Part shown: positions 34,962-63,198 of the stretch, piece by piece
Layout: every line of letters begins with the position of its first letter
Position numbering within the stretch: the first letter of the stretch is position 1
IMG/VR virus record: IMGVR_UViG_3300045929_000106
Location: 1 to 63,198 of that record
DNA: 63,198 bases
Reading direction: 5' to 3' (one strand)
From: a virus
The notes under the pieces: generated by a model
What the model was told of the DNA's origin: nothing
The model's database searches: none
The model's input: only the letters and a program-made list of their open reading frames with translations
Made by a program: the position numbers and the translations under genes

Positions 34962-36065
34962 CTACGAGGCAAACCCGTAGATCTGCTTGTGATACCTGGG
35001 GTGCACGGTGAGGTTGTGCGCGAGCAGGACCTGCCCCACCAGGATGGTGTTGTTGGCCGCCGGGATGAAGTCGCGGAAGCCGCCGCCAAAGGTGGCGTCG
35101 TTGGAGACGTAGTAGTTGAGGAACGGCTTGCGCGCGTTCAAGATCCAGAGCGTCTCGCGGGTGGTCGACAGGTTACCCGCCGGGTAGGCCGTCACAGCGC
35201 CCGAGGAGGTTTCCGTCAGGTAGGTCACGGCCACCGGGTCAGCCGCGCCCGCCGAGCCGGTCAGGTACTGGCCGGGGCAGTAGCGGCTTGCGACCATCGT
35301 AGCCCCGTTGAATGCCAGTCCCCGAAAGCCCACGCCCACTTCCAGCTTCGCATCCTGGAACCTCTGCTGGGTCTGGAACTTCGACTTGACGTAGCTGAAC
35401 CCCTTGGGAGTGGTGACCATGATGTTGGGCTCGTAGTTGCCGGAGCCGTAGAAGGCGTCCATGTAGCCCGAGTCGATGGTGTCGTACTCCAGGGAGCCGC
35501 CGTTGACGTTGACCGGCACAGAGGACAGGGAAGGCGTGAATGTGGCGCGGGTCAGGGTGCCGTAGGTGGCGTAGGCGGTCCCGTCCCAGGACTGCGCCGA
35601 GCCGTCGTTGATGGCCTCCGCGAGGCCGTTCACGTTGGCCGTGTAGTTGGTGGCGCTCCCGTTCAGGTAGGTGCCGATGGAGACAAACGCGCCCAGGGAC
35701 ATGTAGCCCTGGTCGATGCGCGCCTTCAGCAGCTTGATCGCCGCCAAATCCCCTTTGTTGAGGACTTGGATGTCCTCCTGGTAGAGGGGCACGCTGACCT
35801 GGGTGTACTTCACGTCCATGCGGAGCTGCTGCTCGGTCTGGCGCTGCGTGGTGGTGAAGGTTTTCCCCTTAGCGTAGCCGCCGCCAATCAGCGAGGCGTA
35901 AAGGAAGTCCTCGTTGATGGTGGAGCCGCCGGTGAAGTCCTCGCGCAGGTTCTGGCGGAGGTAATAGTTGAGAGGGTCTTGGTTATAGATGTTGTCGACC
36001 AAGCCGGGGTTGGTGCGGATATACCGCCTAGTCGTTACATTAATCGCATCGAGAGAATCAGGCAT
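34962..36065 (-). CDS. Major capsid protein
   Basis: A 367-residue protein with the composition and length of HK97-fold capsid proteins. It has a helical N-arm, a spine-like TTQRQTEQQLRMDVKYTQVSV near residues 71-91, and a C-terminal strand FRDFIPAANNTILVGQVLLAH. It follows the scaffold gene, is preceded by a short hairpin (36082-36103) and has AGAGGATAGAG before the ATG. The identification rests on order, size and pattern. Confidence 0.75.
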   Translation of the reverse strand: MPDSLDAINVTTRRYIRTNPGLVDNIYNQDPLNYYLRQNLREDFTGGSTINEDFLYASLIGGGYAKGKTFTTTQRQTEQQLRMDVKYTQVSVPLYQEDIQVLNKGDLAAIKLLKARIDQGYMSLGAFVSIGTYLNGSATNYTANVNGLAEAINDGSAQSWDGTAYATYGTLTRATFTPSLSSVPVNVNGGSLEYDTIDSGYMDAFYGSGNYEPNIMVTTPKGFSYVKSKFQTQQRFQDAKLEVGVGFRGLAFNGATMVASRYCPGQYLTGSAGAADPVAVTYLTETSSGAVTAYPAGNLSTTRETLWILNARKPFLNYYVSNDATFGGGFRDFIPAANNTILVGQVLLAHNLTVHPRYHKQIYGFAS

Positions 36066-39051: not shown

Positions 39052-41010
39052 TTAGCTCTCCTTCACCGTGACGCGCGGGGGCTCCTGGCCAGAAGCCTTT
39101 CTCCCGGCTGCGTTCACGTCCCCGCTGAGCCCGAGCTGCTGCATGTACAGGAGGCGCTCCGGTATGGTGCGCACGTTGTCGGGGAGCACGCCTATATTCG
39201 GAATCCCCAATATCTCCCACAGGGTGAAGATGTCCATCCAGCCCGCGCGCGTGAGCTGGAGGTAGATCATCTTCTGCTCCACCTGGGCGCTATTCAGCCA
39301 GCTACCGGGAGAGATCTTAAAGGCGAACCGGCGCAGGAACTCCTTGGCGCGGTCCCAGCGCGGCATGGGGCCCCGCAACAGAGCCTCTGGCGTAATCCCG
39401 CCGTGTTGGTCATAATCGGCGTCATGGACATAGTCTGGCAGCATGCTACCGGGATCGAAGTCAAAGTCATCCTGAACTACGCCGCCGGGGCCCAGCTCGG
39501 TGACTCGCATCGGCAGTGTATAGAACTGGCTGAAATTGTAGGCGAGCTGCATCGCCAACTCTCGCGTGAAGGCTTCCAGTATGCGGGACCGGAAGCGAAT
39601 GGCGGGCGACATGCTGTGGAGGATCGCCTCAACACTATCGTTAGAGGGAACCTGCTTCAAGGTCATCAACTGGGAGAGATCTACTACGCCGCTTAACTCC
39701 TTCATCTCGTCCTGAATCCACTTGACGTGCTCCCACAGAGACTGGTCGAGCGGCGGCGGGTTGACAATCTGGATGCCCTTGCCCGCGAGCGGGTTCTGGT
39801 AGATCTTCCAGCCGCTCCTTCTCGTGTCGAACGTCTGGAACTCGCTTCTCGACACCGAGTTCTTGTCATGGATACTCCCAGGTTGCGCCACCTGCGCGGC
39901 ATGGTCATCGATCACACGGAGGAGGCCGTTCAAGGCCTTCTGCAGGGACAGGAGGTCCCAGACCGGCGCTTTGCCGAGCCAGCTCCAGGGGTAGGGCTGC
40001 AGGGTCAGCTTCAGGATCGGAAAGTGGCCGTGCCAGTAGTAACTGGGGCCGTCGTAGATCATCTGGGTCCCGCACCAGACCAGCATGCGCCGGTTGGGGT
40101 AGAGGGGGTCGCCCACTTTTACTTCGTAGGACCAGTTGTTGGCGGGCTTGCCGTCCTCCCACTCGCCCATGAAGATGGACTCATTGTTGAACTTCTCCCG
40201 CATGTCCTTGCGGGTGTTGCGCCGGTCATCCTTCAGGTAGCAGGTGTAGAGAGTTACTGTCGGAATCCTGGGAAGCTCGTCGCCGGTCTTGGCCCCCTTG
40301 CGGAAGGCCCAGATAGGCGAGATCACATCGGCGGCGGAGTCGCGCATCTTGCTGAGCCAGGAGGTGACCGAGCCGTCCTCCTCCGACTTCACGTCCAGGC
40401 CGTACTTGTCGCGGACGTAGTTGACCGGGACCTTGCGCTTGACGATGATACCCAGGCAGGACTCGCAGCTCTCGTTGCCGAGCGGGCGGATCGGCAGGAC
40501 GTTGCGCGGGTCCTCCGCGCAGGCCTCGATGTCGCCCAGCTCCGGCGACCAGTAGAGGTGGAGGAAGCCGGTGCCGCCCACCACGTAATACTTGATGGCG
40601 TCTGCCAAACGCAGGTCGATGGAGCGGCGCTGATACCAGAAGGTCGCCAATTTGCCGTAGATCGAGGCATGCTGCTCGAAACGCCGGTTGGCCACCGAGT
40701 AGTCCCAGAAGGGCCGGGTGTCCGTCATCAGGGCCGCGAGGTCTTCCGCGATTTTGGACACCCGGTTGGTGCGGGTGCCCGAGAGCGAAGACTTCACGTC
40801 CGCTTTGGCCGTCTCGTCCTGGCTCATCACGGCGTCGATGGCGGGGCCGATTTGGCTGTAACCGGGCTGCGCCGCGAGAAAGCTCTCGGCCTCGTGCACC
40901 GCCTCCGTCAGCCAAGCGATGGTGGGGTCGCCAATGGTGTTCTGCTCCTGGCCGCTGACCGGGTCGACCGGCAGACGCGGAGGAGTCGGAGGACCGGCGA
41001 CAACACTCAT
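39052..41010 (-). CDS. Portal protein
   Basis: A 652-residue protein, the usual size of a podovirus portal. It has a helical N-terminal region, a long stretch with PYPWSWLGKAPVWDLLSLQ and several helices matching the stem and crown, and an acidic Gly-rich end. The ATG at 41010 (MSVVAGPPTPP) is preferred to a much longer upstream frame, which reads the strand opposite another gene. Order terminase to portal to scaffold to capsid supports it. Confidence 0.75.
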   Translation of the reverse strand: MSVVAGPPTPPRLPVDPVSGQEQNTIGDPTIAWLTEAVHEAESFLAAQPGYSQIGPAIDAVMSQDETAKADVKSSLSGTRTNRVSKIAEDLAALMTDTRPFWDYSVANRRFEQHASIYGKLATFWYQRRSIDLRLADAIKYYVVGGTGFLHLYWSPELGDIEACAEDPRNVLPIRPLGNESCESCLGIIVKRKVPVNYVRDKYGLDVKSEEDGSVTSWLSKMRDSAADVISPIWAFRKGAKTGDELPRIPTVTLYTCYLKDDRRNTRKDMREKFNNESIFMGEWEDGKPANNWSYEVKVGDPLYPNRRMLVWCGTQMIYDGPSYYWHGHFPILKLTLQPYPWSWLGKAPVWDLLSLQKALNGLLRVIDDHAAQVAQPGSIHDKNSVSRSEFQTFDTRRSGWKIYQNPLAGKGIQIVNPPPLDQSLWEHVKWIQDEMKELSGVVDLSQLMTLKQVPSNDSVEAILHSMSPAIRFRSRILEAFTRELAMQLAYNFSQFYTLPMRVTELGPGGVVQDDFDFDPGSMLPDYVHDADYDQHGGITPEALLRGPMPRWDRAKEFLRRFAFKISPGSWLNSAQVEQKMIYLQLTRAGWMDIFTLWEILGIPNIGVLPDNVRTIPERLLYMQQLGLSGDVNAAGRKASGQEPPRVTVKES

Positions 41011-41103
41011 GCGGACATGGTATGGTCCTGGACTTGGCCGTCTGGACTTGCACCCCGAGCGTAAGTGAACCAACTCCGGCTGACGGTCTATCCTGCGGGA
41101 ATC

Positions 41104-42285
41104 ATGGCGTCGACACCAACCACGATTCCGCTCACCGGCACGCTCACCAGGGACGGCGACAAGTTCAGCGTGACCATCAGCGGGGAAGGGCTGCCGGTGC
41201 CGCCGGAACCCGAGCCGCCGGAGCCGGAGCCGCCCGAGGGCAAGGTGATCGTGCCCACCGGCGGGGACGACACGGGCTTCCTGCAGGGAGAGCTGAACGC
41301 GCTCGCGGACGGCGAGACGCTCATCCTGTCGGGCATGTTCAAGGTCTCGGACACGCTTTGGCTGCGCGGGTACGCCAAGGAGCTGCACGCGGACCCGGCC
41401 AAGCCTTCCGGGTTCTTGTCCTCCAGGGGCGGCCTCTGGAGCGGCCCATATGGGTCGCTTCTGTGCGTCGAGGGGGATGCGGCGAGGATACGGGGCCTGG
41501 AGTTCAACGGCCAGGGCAACCCCACCGAGATGGTGTTCTTCAACCACGGCGCGGACCACGAGATCGCGGACTGCTTTTGTCACGATATTGCGGTCAACAT
41601 GACCGGGCCGCCCTGCGCCGCGATTCACTCCGAGGCGACGGTGGGGCTGCGGGTCCGGCGCAACCGGGTGGAGCGCACCGGAGGAGTCGTAGGGGACCAG
41701 GGCGTGCGCGGGATCTGGCTGCCCACCCGGAGCGACACGCTGGTCGAAGGCAACACGGTGAAAGACACCGGACACACGGGGATTGCGGTTGAGGGGAACG
41801 GGATGATCGTGCGCGGAAATGTGGTCGAGGGGCCAATCCAGGGGACGTGCTTCAAGATTTGCTACCGGGTGATGGTGTCGCGGCGGCGGGATGTGGCTGC
41901 GGTCTATTTCGAGCAGAATACGGCGAAACGGAGCCAGCAGGGCGCGGGGCTCATGCTTCAGGACATGGCGAACCTGCCGCTGATTTCGATTGAGGGGAAC
42001 GAGTTCAGAGACTGCGGCCCAGCGGGGACCACATTCGGGGCGCTCTACTGTTCGACGCCAGCCAGGAACATCCGCTTCAAGGGGAACAAGGTGGCGAACT
42101 GCCGGAGCCTGGGCGGCCTGCTGTACGTGACCAACTCGATTTTCGAGGACACCACGTTTGAGGGCGGCAGCTCGGTCCTGCACCTGGAGAGGGACTGCAG
42201 CTACATCACGCTTACCCGGAGCGGCAGCGCGAGCGTCGGACCCGGCTGCCATCACATCACGGTGGACGGGCAGCCAGCGCGATAA
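41104..42285 (+). CDS. Right-handed parallel beta-helix protein, tailspike/pectate lyase-like
   Basis: A 393-residue protein on the strand opposite to all surrounding late genes. A Pro/Glu-rich linker near residues 35-50 is followed by beta-helix repeats (RIRGLEFNGQGN, VVGDQGVRGIWL, TLVEGNTVKDTG, MIVRGNVVEGPI, LISIEGNEFRDC). That is the pattern of pectate lyase-like or NosD-type helices used by tailspikes. An in-frame GTG at 41065 is possible, but the ATG at 41104 is preferred. It would need its own promoter. Confidence 0.7.
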   Translation: MASTPTTIPLTGTLTRDGDKFSVTISGEGLPVPPEPEPPEPEPPEGKVIVPTGGDDTGFLQGELNALADGETLILSGMFKVSDTLWLRGYAKELHADPAKPSGFLSSRGGLWSGPYGSLLCVEGDAARIRGLEFNGQGNPTEMVFFNHGADHEIADCFCHDIAVNMTGPPCAAIHSEATVGLRVRRNRVERTGGVVGDQGVRGIWLPTRSDTLVEGNTVKDTGHTGIAVEGNGMIVRGNVVEGPIQGTCFKICYRVMVSRRRDVAAVYFEQNTAKRSQQGAGLMLQDMANLPLISIEGNEFRDCGPAGTTFGALYCSTPARNIRFKGNKVANCRSLGGLLYVTNSIFEDTTFEGGSSVLHLERDCSYITLTRSGSASVGPGCHHITVDGQPAR

Positions 42286-42744: not shown

Positions 42745-43028
42745 CCGACATAATCGTGGAGCTGCTTGACGATCACTTCGCTCAGCCACTTGGGAAAGTT
42801 CGGCTTGTCCAGGCAGCGCGATTTCAGGCGCTCCAGCAAGCGCGGCTCCAGCACAACCTCCGCGCCTTCGATGGAGAGGGAGTTGAGCGCCGCGATGGCC
42901 GCGAGGAGCTGCTCCTTGTCCATGACGTTGCGGCGCAGACGGGCCGAGAGGAGCGCCATGTCCTCCACGGTAAGGATCACCGCCGGGTCCTGCGCGGCTA
43001 CCTTGCGCGGTTTAATTGTTGGAGTCAT
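42738..43028 (-). CDS. Small hypothetical protein
   Basis: A 96-residue helical protein with a GAAAGGAAGGA site before the ATG. It is encoded between the KTSC-like gene and the zinc-finger gene. Possibly a packaging-related accessory, only by location. Confidence 0.5.
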   Translation of the reverse strand: MTPTIKPRKVAAQDPAVILTVEDMALLSARLRRNVMDKEQLLAAIAALNSLSIEGAEVVLEPRLLERLKSRCLDKPNFPKWLSEVIVKQLHDYVGW

Positions 43029-43246
43029 TCCTTCTTTCCTTTGTAGTGCAGGCGCACCACGTTGTAGAAATACTTGCCGGGAGAATCGGCGGTGGTCAAG
43101 CCTTCGTACACCTGCATGGGGACGCCGGTGAACGTGTAGGCGTTGCCGTTCTTGAACGTCACCTTCAACTCCCGCTGATCGGGGTCGTATGCGGCTTCCA
43201 CAACGTGTCCGCTCTTCCTGATCTTGTACTCCAGAAGTTTAGACAT
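43025..43246 (-). CDS. KTSC-domain protein
   Basis: The 73-residue protein ends in a pattern typical of KTSC domains: an N-terminal strand with an Arg/Lys, then GNAYTFTGVPMQVYEGL, DSPGKYF, NVVRLHY. KTSC domains are found next to recombinases, phage genes and lysyl-tRNA synthetases; their action is not known. The start overlaps the stop of the terminase nuclease gene (TAATG). Confidence 0.7.
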   Translation of the reverse strand: MSKLLEYKIRKSGHVVEAAYDPDQRELKVTFKNGNAYTFTGVPMQVYEGLTTADSPGKYFYNVVRLHYKGKKE

Positions 43247-44070
43247 TAGAGCCTATCAAATACAGAATTCCACCCGGAATGGATTTCGTCCAGGGTCATG
43301 TCGGAGGCCTGCGGGTCGAACACGTCTGCCGCCGTCACCTTCTCGGTCACCCGGTCCAGGTTGATCGTCCACGAGTTCGCCACCCAGAGCGCGAGGTTGA
43401 AGGCGCGCACCCGGTCATCGTGGCCGCCGGGGTTCTCCGCGTAATCCTTCTCCAGGTTCATGCGGCAGTCCGCGTACTCCTCCGCCAGCCAGGGCGAGCG
43501 CACCACGCAGTTCTGGAGCACCAGATGGCGGGAGGCCTTCACCCAGAGGTCGCGGTTGGTCCTGGGACTCGCGTGCCAGCCCATGGCCTTGGTGGGAGTC
43601 GCCGGGGTGTCGCCGTAATACTCCCAGCGGAAGTGGTTGAAGTAGCCCAGCTCCAGGCAGGTTTGCAGGGTGCCCGCGCCGGGGCCGGGGAAGACCTCGA
43701 TGATCACCTTGCACTGCTCTTCGTCAGCGCCCGCGTAGAGGCGGCCCAGCGAGTTGATCACGTAGCCGAGGTCGAAGGCGTCGACGGGCGCGGCATACTC
43801 GCACACCTGCACGTCCTTGTTGCCGTCTTTCCCCACCTTGATGATCTCAATGGCCCCGTTGTCGGTCTTGGCGTCCTCCTTCACGCGGGCGAAGCGGTTC
43901 CAGCCGGTGCGGCCCACCGTGGGGTCGCAGCCGAGCACGTAGGTGGCGCTCTTGATCGGGGGCTCCCACATCCAGACGATGCCGCGCGGGTCGCCGTCGA
44001 ACTCGCGGGGCTCCAGCTTCTCCAGGCGGCTGCTCCGGCCCACGGTGAAGACTTCGGGGAAAGCGCTCAT
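43246..44070 (-). CDS. terL: Terminase large subunit, nuclease-domain half
   Basis: The 274-residue product reads as an RNase H-like terminase nuclease: VLGCDP with Asp49, IIEVFPGPG with Glu125, and GGHDDRVRAFNLA with Asp218-Asp219. Normal large terminases carry this domain after an ATPase domain in one protein; here they are separate genes with a small gene between. It is coupled upstream by overlap (ATGA). Confidence 0.75.
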   Translation of the reverse strand: MSAFPEVFTVGRSSRLEKLEPREFDGDPRGIVWMWEPPIKSATYVLGCDPTVGRTGWNRFARVKEDAKTDNGAIEIIKVGKDGNKDVQVCEYAAPVDAFDLGYVINSLGRLYAGADEEQCKVIIEVFPGPGAGTLQTCLELGYFNHFRWEYYGDTPATPTKAMGWHASPRTNRDLWVKASRHLVLQNCVVRSPWLAEEYADCRMNLEKDYAENPGGHDDRVRAFNLALWVANSWTINLDRVTEKVTAADVFDPQASDMTLDEIHSGWNSVFDRL

Positions 44071-44312
44071 TCCTTGTCGCAGCCTATCAGCGCGCTGGCG
44101 ATTCGCCCATACTGATCGATACGAACCTCGATATCGAGCCCGTCCCGGTGCACCTCCAACTGGATGCCGCCATCATTACAGGGAACCACCGCAAACCCCA
44201 GGAGCGTGGCGCAGGCTTCTTGCGTGGGCGGCTTAGCGTCATAGCTATCCCACCCCGGCTTCAACGAGGTCAGCCGCTGCACCCAATCGTCACAAAGCAG
44301 CGGCGCGCTCAT
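44067..44312 (-). CDS. Small protein inserted between terminase halves
   Basis: An 81-residue protein with LLCDDWVQRLTSLKPGWDSY, a GGIQLEVHRDGLDIEVRIDQ-like stretch and a Cys near the end. The WDSY...GGI.LE.H pattern recalls small bacterial proteins of unknown function. ATGA overlaps at both ends make one tightly coupled ATPase/insert/nuclease cistron set. It may be a bridge or regulator for the split terminase. Inference. Confidence 0.6.
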   Translation of the reverse strand: MSAPLLCDDWVQRLTSLKPGWDSYDAKPPTQEACATLLGFAVVPCNDGGIQLEVHRDGLDIEVRIDQYGRIASALIGCDKE

Positions 44313-45538
44313 GCCACCCTCCGCGCGATTTCGACGTTGTACGGCATCCCGTTGAGCGCCGTGCTCCGCATCCACTCCACAGTCTCCAACGGGAGCGCCG
44401 AGCGGGTCGAGTGCTGGAAGGACTGTTCCGGCGTGGCGCAGTAGTTCGACAGGAAGATGTGGAGGGACCCCTCCTTGCGGTATTGCTGATACTCCGTCTC
44501 CCACCAGTAGAGCTGGTCGCGCTTCAGCCGCACGGTAGTCCCGCAGAACTCCGGCGAGGTGCGCTGCACCAGATCGGCGTGGTCCTCCGTCACCTGATTC
44601 GGACGCCAGTCGTCGGGGGCCGCGCGCCGGTATTTCTTCTTCTCGATGTACCAGGGCGTGAAAATGTAGGTCCACGCGGCGAAGCCTTCCTCCTTCTTGC
44701 GGACGGACTCCGTGAACGAGTGCCAGAAGTTGCCGCGCCCGTTGGCCGTGCTCTCGAAAGCAACGAACGCCGTGGGGGCCTGCGGGACCGCCGGGAGGAA
44801 GTCGAACTTCAGTCTGTCCGCGTAGTCCCAGAGGGCCACCTCCGTCATGTGGCTGACATCGAACTGCTGGCCGGTGCCCACGCCCGCCTTCTGGTTCGAC
44901 TGCTGGTAGGTAAGACGCGACTTCAGGTTGGAGAAGCTCATGTGGGAGTCCTTCACGTCGAACTCCGTGACCGGCAGCAGGAACGGCGGCAGGTTCTCCA
45001 GAATGGTTTTGTCGCGCACGTACAGCTCGTGCACCTTGTCGATGTCGAGACTCCCGGCGATAGAGCGGGTGTTCCTCCAGAGAAGCATGCGGTGCATGTT
45101 GATCAGGCGCATGATGGCGGTGGCTCCCAGTTGCCGAGACTTGTGCCAGATCGTCAACAGGCCGTCCGAGAAGCCGTGCTTCTCATACTGCCGCCACATC
45201 TCCTCTTCACGTTTACCTATTAGCTCCAGCGCCCTTTCCTGACTCGTCCAGAATTTCATGGGGCCCACGCCGCCGCCGCACGAGGCGTCCAGGTCGATGT
45301 TGCCGTAGCGCTCGGCAAAATACCTGAAGTCGTAGCGGCAGAGGATCAGCTCGTTGCGGACGAAAGCGCGCTCCTCCGTGGTGAGGGCCCGCCTGTAGTC
45401 ACCGGTCTTGGAGTCGATCAGGTCGCGCAGGCGCGCGGACACGTCGATGCACTTGCCTATCGGGTGGCGCTCCAGGGTGAGGTTGTTCTGGCGCTGCTTG
45501 CGCTGCAGGTTTTTGTCGACCACCAACGGGGAATACAT
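44309..45538 (-). CDS. terL: Terminase large subunit, ATPase-domain half
   Basis: The 409-residue product has the terminase ATPase signature: a KSRQLGAT P-loop variant near residues 133-140, SHMTEVALW around 229-237 and ESTANGRGNFW near 262-272. The nuclease motifs are absent. It is encoded upstream of the nuclease half, with one small gene between. The combined length of the two halves is that of a normal terminase. Confidence 0.8.
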   Translation of the reverse strand: MYSPLVVDKNLQRKQRQNNLTLERHPIGKCIDVSARLRDLIDSKTGDYRRALTTEERAFVRNELILCRYDFRYFAERYGNIDLDASCGGGVGPMKFWTSQERALELIGKREEEMWRQYEKHGFSDGLLTIWHKSRQLGATAIMRLINMHRMLLWRNTRSIAGSLDIDKVHELYVRDKTILENLPPFLLPVTEFDVKDSHMSFSNLKSRLTYQQSNQKAGVGTGQQFDVSHMTEVALWDYADRLKFDFLPAVPQAPTAFVAFESTANGRGNFWHSFTESVRKKEEGFAAWTYIFTPWYIEKKKYRRAAPDDWRPNQVTEDHADLVQRTSPEFCGTTVRLKRDQLYWWETEYQQYRKEGSLHIFLSNYCATPEQSFQHSTRSALPLETVEWMRSTALNGMPYNVEIARRVA

Positions 45539-45724
45539 TCAGTCCTCCGTCGACCCGTACATCACTTCGACCCGTTCGTTGATCGCGCTGCCGGTGGCGG
45601 TGATGCGCCGAATGCCGCGCGACTCCAGGTCCAGCTCGTAGAGGTCGCGGATCTCCTCCAGGGCGGCGGCGGTGCGCGCCAGCGATTTCACGAAGAGGCG
45701 GATGAGACGTATGGTCGCAAACAT
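45539..45724 (-). CDS. Small hypothetical protein
   Basis: A 61-residue, basic helical protein (MFATIRLIRLFVKSLARTAA) just upstream of the terminase ATPase gene, followed by a TGAATG junction. The first 20 residues are amphipathic, and it could associate with membrane or DNA. No family. An ACTCCCAGTAG-type site lies four bases upstream (minus strand 45728-45738). Confidence 0.5.
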   Translation of the reverse strand: MFATIRLIRLFVKSLARTAAALEEIRDLYELDLESRGIRRITATGSAINERVEVMYGSTED

Positions 45725-45750: not shown

Positions 45751-46641
45751 TCAGGTCAGACCCCTACTGCCCAGCCCGTTGGCATGTAACCGCAGCAACC
45801 GCGCCCGCAGTTTAGGATCGCGTATCCTGGCGGCCACGGCGTTCACGTAAGCCGTTCCCCACGGCTGTCCGATGGAATACCCAAGACCCTCATCAACGAA
45901 GCGGCGAATACGGACACCGGCGTCCTGACTAGAGAAGCTCGGATATTTTTCCATGGCTGATCTGAGAATATCCACCGCTTGCTGCGGAATCAGGCCAAGA
46001 AGATCCCCGGCGTACTCGCCAAGACCAGCCCGGTCATAAATCACATGAGCGGACTCGTGGGGAATCGGGTTCGCCCATTCGCTGCCCGGTTCCACCGTCG
46101 CGCGACTGACCGTCATGGAGCCAGAGGGGGGATGATAGCGGCCAGCCACTCCCGCGCCCAGCTTTTCCTGCGGGCGGATATAGAGCGGGGTGCGCGTGAT
46201 GCGGGAATACGCATTGGGCTGCGGGCCGGAACCGGAGATCTGAGCGGCGTAGCGGCGCTCATCCACTGGAGGCGCGGGAGCTGCGGGCGCTACCGGACGC
46301 ATGGCCCTCGCTACCGGGGCTGTAATTTTCGGCGGGGCCGCCCAGGTTGCTGCGGGCAAATCCGGCTGTTGGGCCATATCCGGCGGGCGAAACTCAGGAG
46401 CAGTGAAAGCCTTCCCCGGCGGGCGAGAAGGAAGCGCTCCCACAAGGCTGCTGATCAGAGCGGAGCTATCCGGCGCTGCCCAAGAAACTGTTGGCATCGT
46501 TTCAGGCGGCGTGGGCATGACCGGAGCAGGTGGAACGTAAGGCTGAACAAGCTTGTTCTGGATAGCGGAGGGAATCGGCTGCACCGGCTCAAAAGGAGCG
46601 GTGACCGTAATCGGTTGCGTTTTGACGCTAGCCCTAGCCAT
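45751..46641 (-). CDS. Zincin-like metallopeptidase, Pro-rich N-terminus
   Basis: A 296-residue protein with a Pro/Ala-rich first 125 residues and HESAH (residues 195-199), the HExxH zinc motif. A RFVDEGLGYS stretch near 247-256 could supply a gluzincin third-ligand glutamate (Glu251). Known phage zincins act as toxins or on virion or host proteins. It lies between a small-subunit-like gene and the terminase. A prohead protease is a possibility. GGAGGAATCG before the ATG. Confidence 0.6.
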   Translation of the reverse strand: MARASVKTQPITVTAPFEPVQPIPSAIQNKLVQPYVPPAPVMPTPPETMPTVSWAAPDSSALISSLVGALPSRPPGKAFTAPEFRPPDMAQQPDLPAATWAAPPKITAPVARAMRPVAPAAPAPPVDERRYAAQISGSGPQPNAYSRITRTPLYIRPQEKLGAGVAGRYHPPSGSMTVSRATVEPGSEWANPIPHESAHVIYDRAGLGEYAGDLLGLIPQQAVDILRSAMEKYPSFSSQDAGVRIRRFVDEGLGYSIGQPWGTAYVNAVAARIRDPKLRARLLRLHANGLGSRGLT

Positions 46642-47344
46642 CGATTCCTCCTTCGCCTCTGTCCAGCGTAACGTCGACGGTGCGCCGGTCCATCTCGTCC
46701 AGGCGCTCCATCTCGTCCAGCACGGAATCGGCGCGCACGTTCACGCTGACGGCGACACCGGACGGCTCGGCGGAGATCACACCGGCGTTGCGCATGACCC
46801 ACTCGCGCGACTTCAGGTCGCCGGGGCGGCGCACAAGGCCGGAGCCTTTGCACTGCTTGCACTTGATCCAGACCATGCCCATGCCGTCCTCGATGCGCAT
46901 CGAGCCGCCGCCGTCGCAGCGGGGGCAGCAGACCTCGACGGACTTCGCGTCCTCCGACATGTCGCGCGCGACTTGCGGCGCGGAGCGGAGCGCCTCCCCG
47001 AGCGCCGCCGTCTTTTGCCTGTCGCGCCAGATTTCCATCAGGTCCTTCGACTTCATGCCGCAGCGGTTGGCGAGCACCGACAGCGGGAGATCCATGAAGC
47101 GCGGGTTGCCGAGCATCTCGCAAAACTTCAGCGCGCCGGGATGCTCGCTCTCGATCATCGCTTGGTGGAGATCCTCGCGCAGCACCGAGTCGATCCAGGG
47201 AAGAACGCCATGGGCTTTCGCGGGAAGCTTGGGGGGCTCGGCGGTGAGCATTGCGTCCGCGTGTTGAGGGGCGGGGACCGGAACCGGGGCGCGAACGGAA
47301 TCGGGGACGGGGACCGGAACCGGAGCCGGAGCAGCCTTCTTCAC
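46634..47344 (-). CDS. Terminase small subunit-like protein with a zinc ribbon
   Basis: A 236-residue protein with a Pro/Val-rich start, a helical domain (LPWIDSVLREDLHQAMI and following) and a CxxCxGxG-type double pair (CPRCDGGG, CKQCKGSG) near residues 139-168, as in DnaJ zinc fingers. A DNA-binding small terminase subunit would fit the place ahead of the large terminase; the zinc finger is not typical. GTG start overlapping the previous stop. Confidence 0.5.
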   Translation of the reverse strand: MKKAAPAPVPVPVPDSVRAPVPVPAPQHADAMLTAEPPKLPAKAHGVLPWIDSVLREDLHQAMIESEHPGALKFCEMLGNPRFMDLPLSVLANRCGMKSKDLMEIWRDRQKTAALGEALRSAPQVARDMSEDAKSVEVCCPRCDGGGSMRIEDGMGMVWIKCKQCKGSGLVRRPGDLKSREWVMRNAGVISAEPSGVAVSVNVRADSVLDEMERLDEMDRRTVDVTLDRGEGGIDG

Positions 47345-47772: not shown

Positions 47773-48969
47773 ATGGCAAGACAACGCTATCAAGAAGGAC
47801 GCATCGAGAAGACCGGCAAAACGCCCAAGTGGAAGGGTCACTACTACACGTATGACGGGACCGGAAAGCGGCATCACAAGCTGGTCGATCTCGGCCCCTG
47901 CTCCAAGGTGACGAAGACCGAGGCGCAGAAAAAATTCCGCAAGATCGTGGAGAAGGAAACCGGCGCCGTCAAAGCCGCCAACGAAGAGGACACTTTCGAG
48001 TGGTTCTGGACCGAGCGCTTCGCCCCCTTCAAGCCGTGGACGAAAAAAACGCGCGAGTGGATCGAGGGCATCTTCACGCGCGACGTGCTGCCGGAGCTGG
48101 GGCCGCTCAAGCTGGGCGAGATCAAGACCATCCATGTGGAGCTTCTGATGAAGAAGCTGGAGCCGAAATCCTATTCGCTCTCGCGCGCCGTCCGCACCTA
48201 CATCAAGATGGCGTTCCAGAAACTGGAAGACGAGGACATGATCGTCAAGAACCCCACGCGCCGGGTGAAGATCCTCGCCCGGAAACCGTCGCGCCGCAAG
48301 CGCCACATCAGCAAAGAGGAGCTGGATCTCCTGATCTCCGAGCTGAACGCGCGCGACAGGCTGATCGTCAGGATCGCGGTGGTGTGCGGGCTGCGGCCCG
48401 CCGAATTGTTCGCTCTCAAGTGGGACGACTTCCACCCGGAGACGGGGCAGCTCCGCATCGATGAAACGTATTCCGGCGGCGAGTGGAAGGAGACGAAGAC
48501 CGAGGAGTCGGACGGCTGGGTGTCGATGCCGCCCTCGATCACCAAGCAGCTCCAGTTCTGGCGCGAGCAGAATCCGCAAGGGCAGTTGATCTTCTCCGGC
48601 GGGCGCAAGTTCGACCACCCGATCATCGCGGACAACTTCGTCGACAGGAACCTGCGGCGGGCCGCCGTGCGCGCCGGGATCATGCCGTCGAATCCCAAGG
48701 AGGGCCGCGTGAACGAGTTCTACGGCGACAAGCGCACGGCGGTAAACTTCCAGGCGTTCCGGCGCACCTGCGCAACATGGTGTCTGCAGAACGGCTCCAT
48801 CAAGGACGCGCAGACCCACCTGCGCCACCGCAACCCGGCTACCACGCTGGGGCACTACATCCAGACCGTCCCGGCCAGCGTGCGCAGCGCCGTCGAGGGA
48901 GTGGACACCCACTTCTTCGCCAGCGCGAAACCGGCCCGCCCGCAGCAACTCTCCACCGCCGTCCAATAG
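47773..48969 (+). CDS. int: Tyrosine integrase
   Basis: A 398-residue tyrosine recombinase. The catalytic domain has Arg208 (CGLRPAELFALKW), a FQAFRRT box with Arg330, His352 (LRHRN) and the nucleophile Tyr362 (LGHYIQ). The usual His of HxLR is Gln327. The N-terminal 170 residues form the arm- and core-binding part. It is divergent from the late operon and convergent with an excisionase-like gene. Phage integration is the natural role. Confidence 0.85.
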   Translation: MARQRYQEGRIEKTGKTPKWKGHYYTYDGTGKRHHKLVDLGPCSKVTKTEAQKKFRKIVEKETGAVKAANEEDTFEWFWTERFAPFKPWTKKTREWIEGIFTRDVLPELGPLKLGEIKTIHVELLMKKLEPKSYSLSRAVRTYIKMAFQKLEDEDMIVKNPTRRVKILARKPSRRKRHISKEELDLLISELNARDRLIVRIAVVCGLRPAELFALKWDDFHPETGQLRIDETYSGGEWKETKTEESDGWVSMPPSITKQLQFWREQNPQGQLIFSGGRKFDHPIIADNFVDRNLRRAAVRAGIMPSNPKEGRVNEFYGDKRTAVNFQAFRRTCATWCLQNGSIKDAQTHLRHRNPATTLGHYIQTVPASVRSAVEGVDTHFFASAKPARPQQLSTAVQ

Positions 48970-48972
48970 GCC

Positions 48973-49176
48973 TCATTTGCCGGAGGGCCTTCTCGCCGCC
49001 GAGAGGGCCCTCTGCTCCTTCAGAAATTCGTCCAGGTCCTCCAAGCAGAACCGCAACGATCCTCCCATCCGCACCACCGGCACGCGCGGGCGCTTTCCTT
49101 CGACGTGCGCATACATCCAGGCCACGGACATCCCGAGGTATTGCGCCGCTTCCTTGATTCCCATGAGTCTGCTCAT
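48973..49176 (-). CDS. Excisionase-like HTH protein
   Basis: A 67-residue protein with GIKEAAQYLGMSVAWMYAHV at residues 6-25, a MerR/HTH_17-type DNA-binding helix-turn-helix, and a basic tail. It lies four bases from the integrase 3' end in the opposite direction, as excisionases often do. The function as Xis is inferred. An ACTCCCAGT-type site lies upstream at 49230-49238. Confidence 0.6.
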   Translation of the reverse strand: MSRLMGIKEAAQYLGMSVAWMYAHVEGKRPRVPVVRMGGSLRFCLEDLDEFLKEQRALSAARRPSGK

Positions 49177-62669: not shown

Positions 62670-63198
62670 ATGAGCGGCATCCAATCAGCCCAGATTGGCG
62701 AAGAGGTAGTGCTTCTCCTCCCCTCCGAAATCCAGACGATCTCCCGCTATAACGTCAGGCCGTTTTCCTCCTCCGCATCGAGCGAAGACGAAGACAAGCG
62801 CATCGAGCAGTTGGCCCTCTCCATCGAGACGCAGGGCCAGTTCGACAGCGTCCTGATCACCCCCGAGCATGTGTTGGTGGCCGGTCACCGCAGGCGGCGC
62901 GCGGTGATCCTGATCAACGAGCGCAGATCGGCGCGCGGCAGGAGCCTGCTCCGGCTGGTGTGCGCGGTGGACCGCACGGGCGGCGACATGCGGCGCAAGG
63001 CCATCCAGAGCAACCTGCAGCGCCGCCAGACCTCCGTGATGGACCTCGCCTACCTGATCGTCCAGATCCGCGAGGAAAACGACTGGAGGGCCTGGAAGGG
63101 CACCCAGCAGGTGGCTGCCTACCTGGGGATCGATCCGTCCACCGTGGTGGCCGCCGAGCGCTTCCTGGGGGCGGAGAAAGACCTCCAGAACAGGCTCC
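62670..63198 (+). CDS. parB: ParB-like partition protein, N-terminal part (continues at the start of the contig)
   Basis: The N-terminal domain begins with ISRYNVRPF. An EQLALSIETQGQFDSVLI stretch and the HVLVAGHRRRRAV box follow, the two ParB/Srx-fold motifs that bind nucleotide in ParB. The gene runs off the right end and is completed at 148-650, about 343 residues in all. No ParA homologue was found. In phage-plasmids such proteins keep the low-copy molecule in daughter cells. Confidence 0.8.
   Translation, partial: MSGIQSAQIGEEVVLLLPSEIQTISRYNVRPFSSSASSEDEDKRIEQLALSIETQGQFDSVLITPEHVLVAGHRRRRAVILINERRSARGRSLLRLVCAVDRTGGDMRRKAIQSNLQRRQTSVMDLAYLIVQIREENDWRAWKGTQQVAAYLGIDPSTVVAAERFLGAEKDLQNRL
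63052..63198. repeat. Terminal redundancy, right copy
   Basis: This 147-base end repeats bases 1-147 with three mismatches near its start. Here the parB reading frame is open (GAG where the left copy has TAG), so this copy is probably the correct one. Confidence 0.9.

Follow-up and report, generated by a model that had tools for sequence, protein, structure and literature searches.

The viral record IMGVR_UViG_3300045929_000106 of IMG/VR was analysed over positions 1 to 63,198 (this stretch of 63,198 nucleotides (nt) is called the window in the following), and we were interested in its large terminase (TerL), whose ATPase and nuclease parts are encoded by two separate genes with a third gene for a protein of 81 amino acids (aa), P0002, between them. 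All open reading frames (ORFs) of this packaging operon lie on the minus strand of the window unless marked +. The coordinates that an earlier note on this DNA had given for the three genes and for the two ATGA overlaps joining them were exact (Table 1), and its assignment of ATPase and nuclease motifs to the two outer genes is backed by profiles, folds and conserved catalytic residues.

The ATPase shows the elements expected of a T4 gp17-like TerL, namely a Walker A-like P-loop, a Walker B segment with catalytic Glu and a coupling motif. Its P-loop deviates from the usual form (HKxRQLGAT), with the Lys placed early and an Ala where GKT usually stands, a variant which we take to resemble that of lambda gpA. 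The protein ends soon after the conserved domain, with the conserved C-terminal end NYCATPEQSFQH, and the nuclease starts directly with its own conserved N-terminus and carries an RNase H-like Asp/Glu/Asp site. The ATPase-family profile matched residues 103-331 of T4 gp17 (E 4.5e-10), and the nuclease profile matched the RB49 gp17 nuclease (7e-8) as well as the C-terminal part of T4 gp17, approximately residues 451-581 (2e-5). AlphaFold gave confident models for both proteins (predicted local distance difference test, pLDDT, 92.4 for the ATPase and 87.5 for the nuclease), with T4/RB49 gp17 as the best PDB fold in each case (2.8e-13 and 5.5e-8 respectively). Residues K133, R135, Q136, E233 and E262 of the ATPase and D49, E125 and D219 of the nuclease were invariant (100% of aligned sequences; 62 relatives); the nuclease triad of T4 gp17 is D401/E458/D542 (PMC9958956). 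Compared with T4/RB49 gp17 (3CPE, 2O0H, 3C6A), the domains, catalytic residues and fold are thus the same, but gp17 is one polypeptide with an essential linker and the window lineage has two genes. By motif, profile and model, the two proteins are T4 gp17-like TerL domains with translocation and cleavage as their predicted activities. No other terminase was detected when the window contig was searched with both profiles. The ATPase had a weak match to the PHROG terminase large subunit, and the nuclease had no match in Pfam, PHROG or NCBIfam. As curated-library matches are poor for both halves, annotation tools that expect a single terL gene can miss or halve the terminase in these genomes.

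Both genes sit in a packaging module near the portal and major head protein genes, as expected for TerL. A Shine-Dalgarno-like GGAGG or AAGGA was found just 5' of each of the three starts. Overlaps of 1-4 nt occur also at later junctions of the operon, from the nuclease to the KTSC gene and from the KTSC gene to a 96-aa gene, so that ATGA coupling is ordinary for this operon and by itself says little.

Table 1. Genes and overlaps of the packaging module in the window
Feature	Position	Strand	Remarks
Terminase ATPase gene	44309..45538	-	409 aa; deviant Walker A HKSRQLGAT (residues 132-140), SHMTEVALW with catalytic E233, coupling motif ESTANG (262-267)
81-aa insert gene P0002	44067..44312	-	lineage-specific; between ATPase and nuclease genes
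Terminase nuclease gene	43246..44070	-	274 aa; RNase H-like; acidic residues D49, E125, D218/D219
ATGA overlap, ATPase stop / insert start	44309..44312	-	ATPase ORF ends ...GCATGA
ATGA overlap, insert stop / nuclease start	44067..44070	-	insert ORF ends ...GGAATGA
KTSC-domain gene	43025..43246	-	downstream of nuclease, TAATG coupling; Pfam PF13619 5e-17
61-aa conserved gene	45539..45724	-	directly upstream of ATPase gene; present in 20 contigs
236-aa conserved gene	46634..47344	-	CXXCXGXG-like zinc ribbon; 49 contigs; weak Pfam DnaJ_CXXCXGXG 8.6e-4; candidate small terminase by position
Portal protein	39052..40980	-	C-terminal ~640 aa of ORF 39052-42255; PHROG portal 1.2e-13; kept in 75 contigs
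Major head protein	34962-36065		

Separate terminase genes among relatives

Relatives were collected by IMG/VR scans with each half and classified by six-frame profile analysis; some of these contigs are near duplicates. Besides the window, the halves were separate in 70 of the 78 contigs holding both and formed a single ORF in the remaining 8, which represent about six lineages; 8 further contigs were too incomplete to be classed as split or fused. The halves were always adjacent or parted solely by cargo genes in every contig with both. Thirty-seven of the split contigs had no gene between the halves, with junctions that overlap by exactly 4 nt (21 contigs) or 1 nt (6 contigs) or are otherwise close (10 contigs), and the other 33 had at least 60 nt between the ATPase and nuclease genes. 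The split lineage consists of uncultured phages, mostly from soil. Another contig, IMGVR_UViG_3300028146_000011 (L106), has exactly the length of the window (63198), apparently by chance, and its nuclease is just 43% identical.

The claim of the earlier note that the large terminase is split into ATPase and nuclease genes is therefore strongly supported by these 70 further contigs, and so is its statement that the split is no sequencing error. Contig L002, a separate assembly of nearly the same phage, shows the same arrangement as the window and differs from it by a single mismatch and no gap in 8346 bp, the nuclease frame relative to the ATPase was 2, 1 or 0 in 37, 19 and 15 contigs respectively, and cargo is present at many junctions. 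Nothing in the window spoke for a sequencing or assembly error, although a frameshift does lie inside the ATPase gene of one relative, L012/L059; given L002 and the 70 split relatives, the probability of this explanation is negligible and we regard it as refuted. The frameshifted gene (L012:4298-5547, on the same contig as L059) stands beside an HNH endonuclease in the slot and may reflect error or decay. The conclusion of the note on this point stands, but the neat coupling from which it argued is unremarkable, since other junctions of the operon overlap likewise.

The split is old. In maximum-likelihood trees of the ATPase, the IMG/VR clade stands apart from the cultured relatives and all its early branches are split, with the six fused lineages placed singly among split neighbours. 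When the fused TerLs of the cultured phages served as outgroup, the split or fused state requires 7 changes on the tree, a number reached by none of 500 shuffles, and without re-fusion about thirty independent splits would be needed (hand count on the drawn tree). On these trees, one ancestral split followed by about six re-fusions is the most economical history. Fused forms lie near split ones in the pairs L029/L028, L057/L050, L042/L041 and L043/L061 (fused first), and the join of fused L029 reads ...SSSNFPAMFTVG, at the point at which split relatives start with MSNFP. A single TerL ORF was present in all cultured relatives examined (Pseudoalteromonas H6/1, PTXU04, Pondi, Bas95, Vibrio 431E45.1 and D60, Bacteroides BKO1-TP3 and Tunturi_1) and, among uncultured assemblies, also in the Manatee Spring genomes. 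The nearest TerLs of cultured phages by tblastn and tree were those of the Tunturiibacter phages Tunturi_1/2 (PP887698, PP885685), with genomes of about 63 kb like the window, and of Escherichia phage PTXU04/Pondi; in these the protein is a single ORF of 542-723 aa, whereas that of the window is split.

Both halves are under purifying selection: when the window is compared with its nearest relatives, nonsynonymous divergence (dN) is 0.18-0.35 and synonymous divergence (dS) 1.0-2.0. The pairwise distances of ATPase and nuclease are tightly correlated (r = 0.923; none of 2000 permutations as high), reflecting a co-divergence of the two halves.

Turnover of genes at the junction

The split is stable and the insert is not. 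Apart from the window, P0002 was detected in the near-identical L002 alone; it belongs to no Pfam, PHROG or NCBIfam family and has no solved relative. Weak similarity was detected to part of an Acetobacter plasmid protein (36%, E 2e-3), with a weak match also to a Hymenobacter plasmid protein. Its GC content at third codon positions (GC3) is 0.73, compared to 0.89 and 0.92 in the flanking terminase genes, and it is flanked by the 8-nt repeat ATGAGCGC. An insert is lacking in the closest sisters L021/L022 as well as in the relatives that follow, L091/L093, and L003/L004 carry an unrelated 39-aa ORF in the slot. Elsewhere the slot holds HNH endonucleases (L027, L059 and L047; an HNH-like ORF was recognised by eye in L068), DNA methylases (cytosine-5 in L005, N4/N6 in L032), a radical-SAM-like protein together with a helix-turn-helix (HTH) regulator (L056), a large DUF7178 protein (L051) or small ORFs without family. 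Often the start of this cargo lies within the stop of the ATPase gene (ATGA) and its end within the start of the nuclease gene.

The earlier note had proposed a stable three-part packaging motor, in which the 81-aa protein would bridge ATPase and nuclease and so replace the lost linker. Its position and the ATGA coupling at both ends fit such a role, but a third gene conserved together with the split was not found, as the insert is confined to the window and L002 and is absent or replaced in the relatives, 37 split contigs having no gene there at all. The lower GC3 of the insert compared to its neighbours and the similar gene traffic at other operon junctions also speak against a bridging protein, and we consider it highly unlikely. 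From its distribution and composition, the most plausible reading of P0002 is a passenger gene that was acquired recently and is no part of the motor. The note had further named two observations that would count against it, that all homologues are fused and that the insert lacks homologues; 70 contigs are split, and within the viral relatives the insert is indeed without homologues.

Two more general ideas about the slot were rejected. The ATPase-nuclease junction is not a special hot spot for insertions, as gaps above 100 nt were similarly frequent at other operon junctions: 22 of 50 between the 96-aa and 132-aa genes, 26 of 60 between the 132-aa gene and the portal, and 36 of 70 split contigs (with crude starts) between ATPase and nuclease. 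Short direct repeats as a general insertion mechanism received no support either, with repeats of 4.9 nt in 26 cargo contigs compared to 4.7 nt in mismatched controls.

A probable two-protein terminase

Therefore, from the intact catalytic residues, the distribution of the split and the co-divergence of the halves, the window probably encodes a two-gene large terminase that arose by an ancestral break in the linker and has been kept as separate, coupled proteins. In the history we propose, the ancestral TerL gene would have been interrupted at the linker that joins its ATPase and nuclease domains, with nearly all descendants keeping the domains as separate, translationally coupled proteins that are most likely made in step from one mRNA. 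Both proteins would then meet at the portal by surface contact and without a covalent link, where the ATPase ring may drive the DNA and the nuclease may dock and cut when packaging begins and when it ends. The junction itself would act as any operon junction that passenger genes enter and leave, with the 81-aa gene as one recent passenger. Further, we think it somewhat more probable than its opposite that ATPase and nuclease stay separate proteins for their whole working life and that covalent linkage is no general need of terminase motors.

Several points weigh against this reading. When T4 gp17 was split at the linker, ATPase and nuclease activity were kept and translocation was lost (PMC3012670, PMC9958956), so that function of a non-covalent assembly is not guaranteed; in the split phages, therefore, ATPase and nuclease would bind each other by a stronger interface, or the motor would work without the link. 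A non-covalent assembly of the two proteins that supports translocation is what we infer for them. The collections searched contained no cultured split phage. Parsimony is the basis for the ancestral split, the outgroup branches of the ATPase trees are long, and repeated splits would fit if splitting is many times easier than fusing.

A rejoining of the halves by RNA splicing, a split intein or a programmed frameshift would restore a single protein, and the first of these has precedents in the intron-split terL genes of Jug phages (PMC12363816) and ICP1 (PMC10448857), whose frame is likewise interrupted and then rejoined by splicing. The window lineage differs from these in having no intron and separate start codons. 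Neither the window nor any of 12 relatives, the majority with large inserts, gave an Rfam intron match, so that a self-splicing intron as in those terL genes was not found, and in 37 contigs there is no room for one because the genes touch. A slippery heptamer in frame and ahead of the ATPase stop was seen in 1 of 37 contigs, no excess over the background of 2.4%, and all three relative frames occur. Some relatives carry inteins in the ATPase, as a split-intein route might lead one to expect, but the Pfam scan gave no intein domain in the window proteins P0001-P0003, and no intein halves were recognised by eye at the ATPase ends or nuclease starts. With no signal for frameshift, intron or split intein, we rejected all three routes, and rejoining appears very improbable. 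The inteins observed are contiguous. In L065:4798-6801, L098:1413-3425 and L099:1478-3487, ATPase ORFs of approximately 670 aa contain an insertion of approximately 255 aa exactly in Walker A (ARQLGA|C...HN|TALSR), which is an intein (Pfam Intein_splicing 3.5e-7 in L065). A second site is occupied in L061:5271-7574, where a LAGLIDADG intein (Pfam 3.3e-16 and 1.2e-14) interrupts the conserved stretch SNY|C-ATPEESFQH close to the C-terminus of the ATPase. Genes fractured in this way but with split inteins, their halves parted by a gene, have been described (Dassa et al., 2009, as cited in PMC3653736); the window differs from these, as its junction showed no recognisable split-intein halves and the contiguous inteins lie elsewhere, in the ATPases of some relatives.

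Alternatively, the nuclease might only cut and never be part of the moving motor, with the ATPase ring alone translocating DNA. Two separate proteins and a nuclease with its full catalytic triad agree with such a division of work, but the fused relatives within the same clade and the tight co-divergence suggest that the halves still pair, and the T4 model has the C-domain within the DNA-moving unit (PMC9958956), so that we regard a nuclease outside the motor as rather unlikely. As to the origin of the break, and compatible with a two-protein terminase, a homing endonuclease may have caused the original split, with the present inserts as its remains or replacements. An endonuclease between the halves, as in genes in pieces, is present in L027, L059 and L047, with the HNH-like ORF of L068 as a possible further case, and was not found in the window. 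Among essential phage enzymes made from two genes, the nearest parallel is nrdA-a/mobE/nrdA-b of Aeromonas phage Aeh1 (PMC3653736), in which a free-standing homing endonuclease lies between the halves and the enzyme is functional; the arrangement in L027/L059 is analogous. Aeh1 differs in the enzyme concerned, and the terL split is a clade-wide ancestral trait, with no endonuclease in the window insert. As the HNH genes occur at few tips of the tree and not at its base, and cargo is about as frequent at other operon junctions, a homing-endonuclease origin seems possible but doubtful.

In the open-access literature, the coverage of which is incomplete, we found intron cases only and no published family-wide split of terL at the protein level. 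In models of the terminase, above all that of T4, the hinge between ATPase and nuclease is the transmission of the motor, and it is unexpected given T4 that dozens of uncultured phages carry, as an ancient and inherited condition, a cut that is fatal to translocation there. The fused forms beside split ones in the tree are matched natural pairs and offer a natural test of whether the link is required. If the two-protein terminase is true, the covalent ATPase-nuclease link that was deemed essential from T4 gp17 would not be needed by terminase motors generally.

Genome context of the window

Within the packaging operon, the 236-aa zinc-ribbon gene is a candidate for the small terminase from its position. 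A 296-aa gene with an HESAH (HExxH-type) motif lies between it and the 61-aa gene (45751-46641, minus strand); it is likely another recent passenger, as its GC3 is 0.64, and it is absent at that place in L003/L004. On the plus strand, a 406-aa ORF with beta-helix-like repeats (recognised by eye) was found at 41065-42285, between the 132-aa gene and the portal, so that the N-terminal extension of the minus-strand ORF 39052-42255 is regarded as spurious.

A tyrosine integrase (47773-48969, plus strand) and a small HTH-like excisionase candidate (48973-49176, minus strand) adjoin the packaging module, and the phage is therefore probably temperate. Two scans of GTDB genomes for prophage relatives, as a search for the host, gave none, and Acidobacteriota as hosts are only a lead, by way of the Tunturi phages. 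The last 126 bases of the window recur from 21 bases in, giving an exact direct repeat of 126 bp (22-147 and 63073-63198), which suggests that the genome, of about 63 kb, is complete and either circular or terminally redundant.
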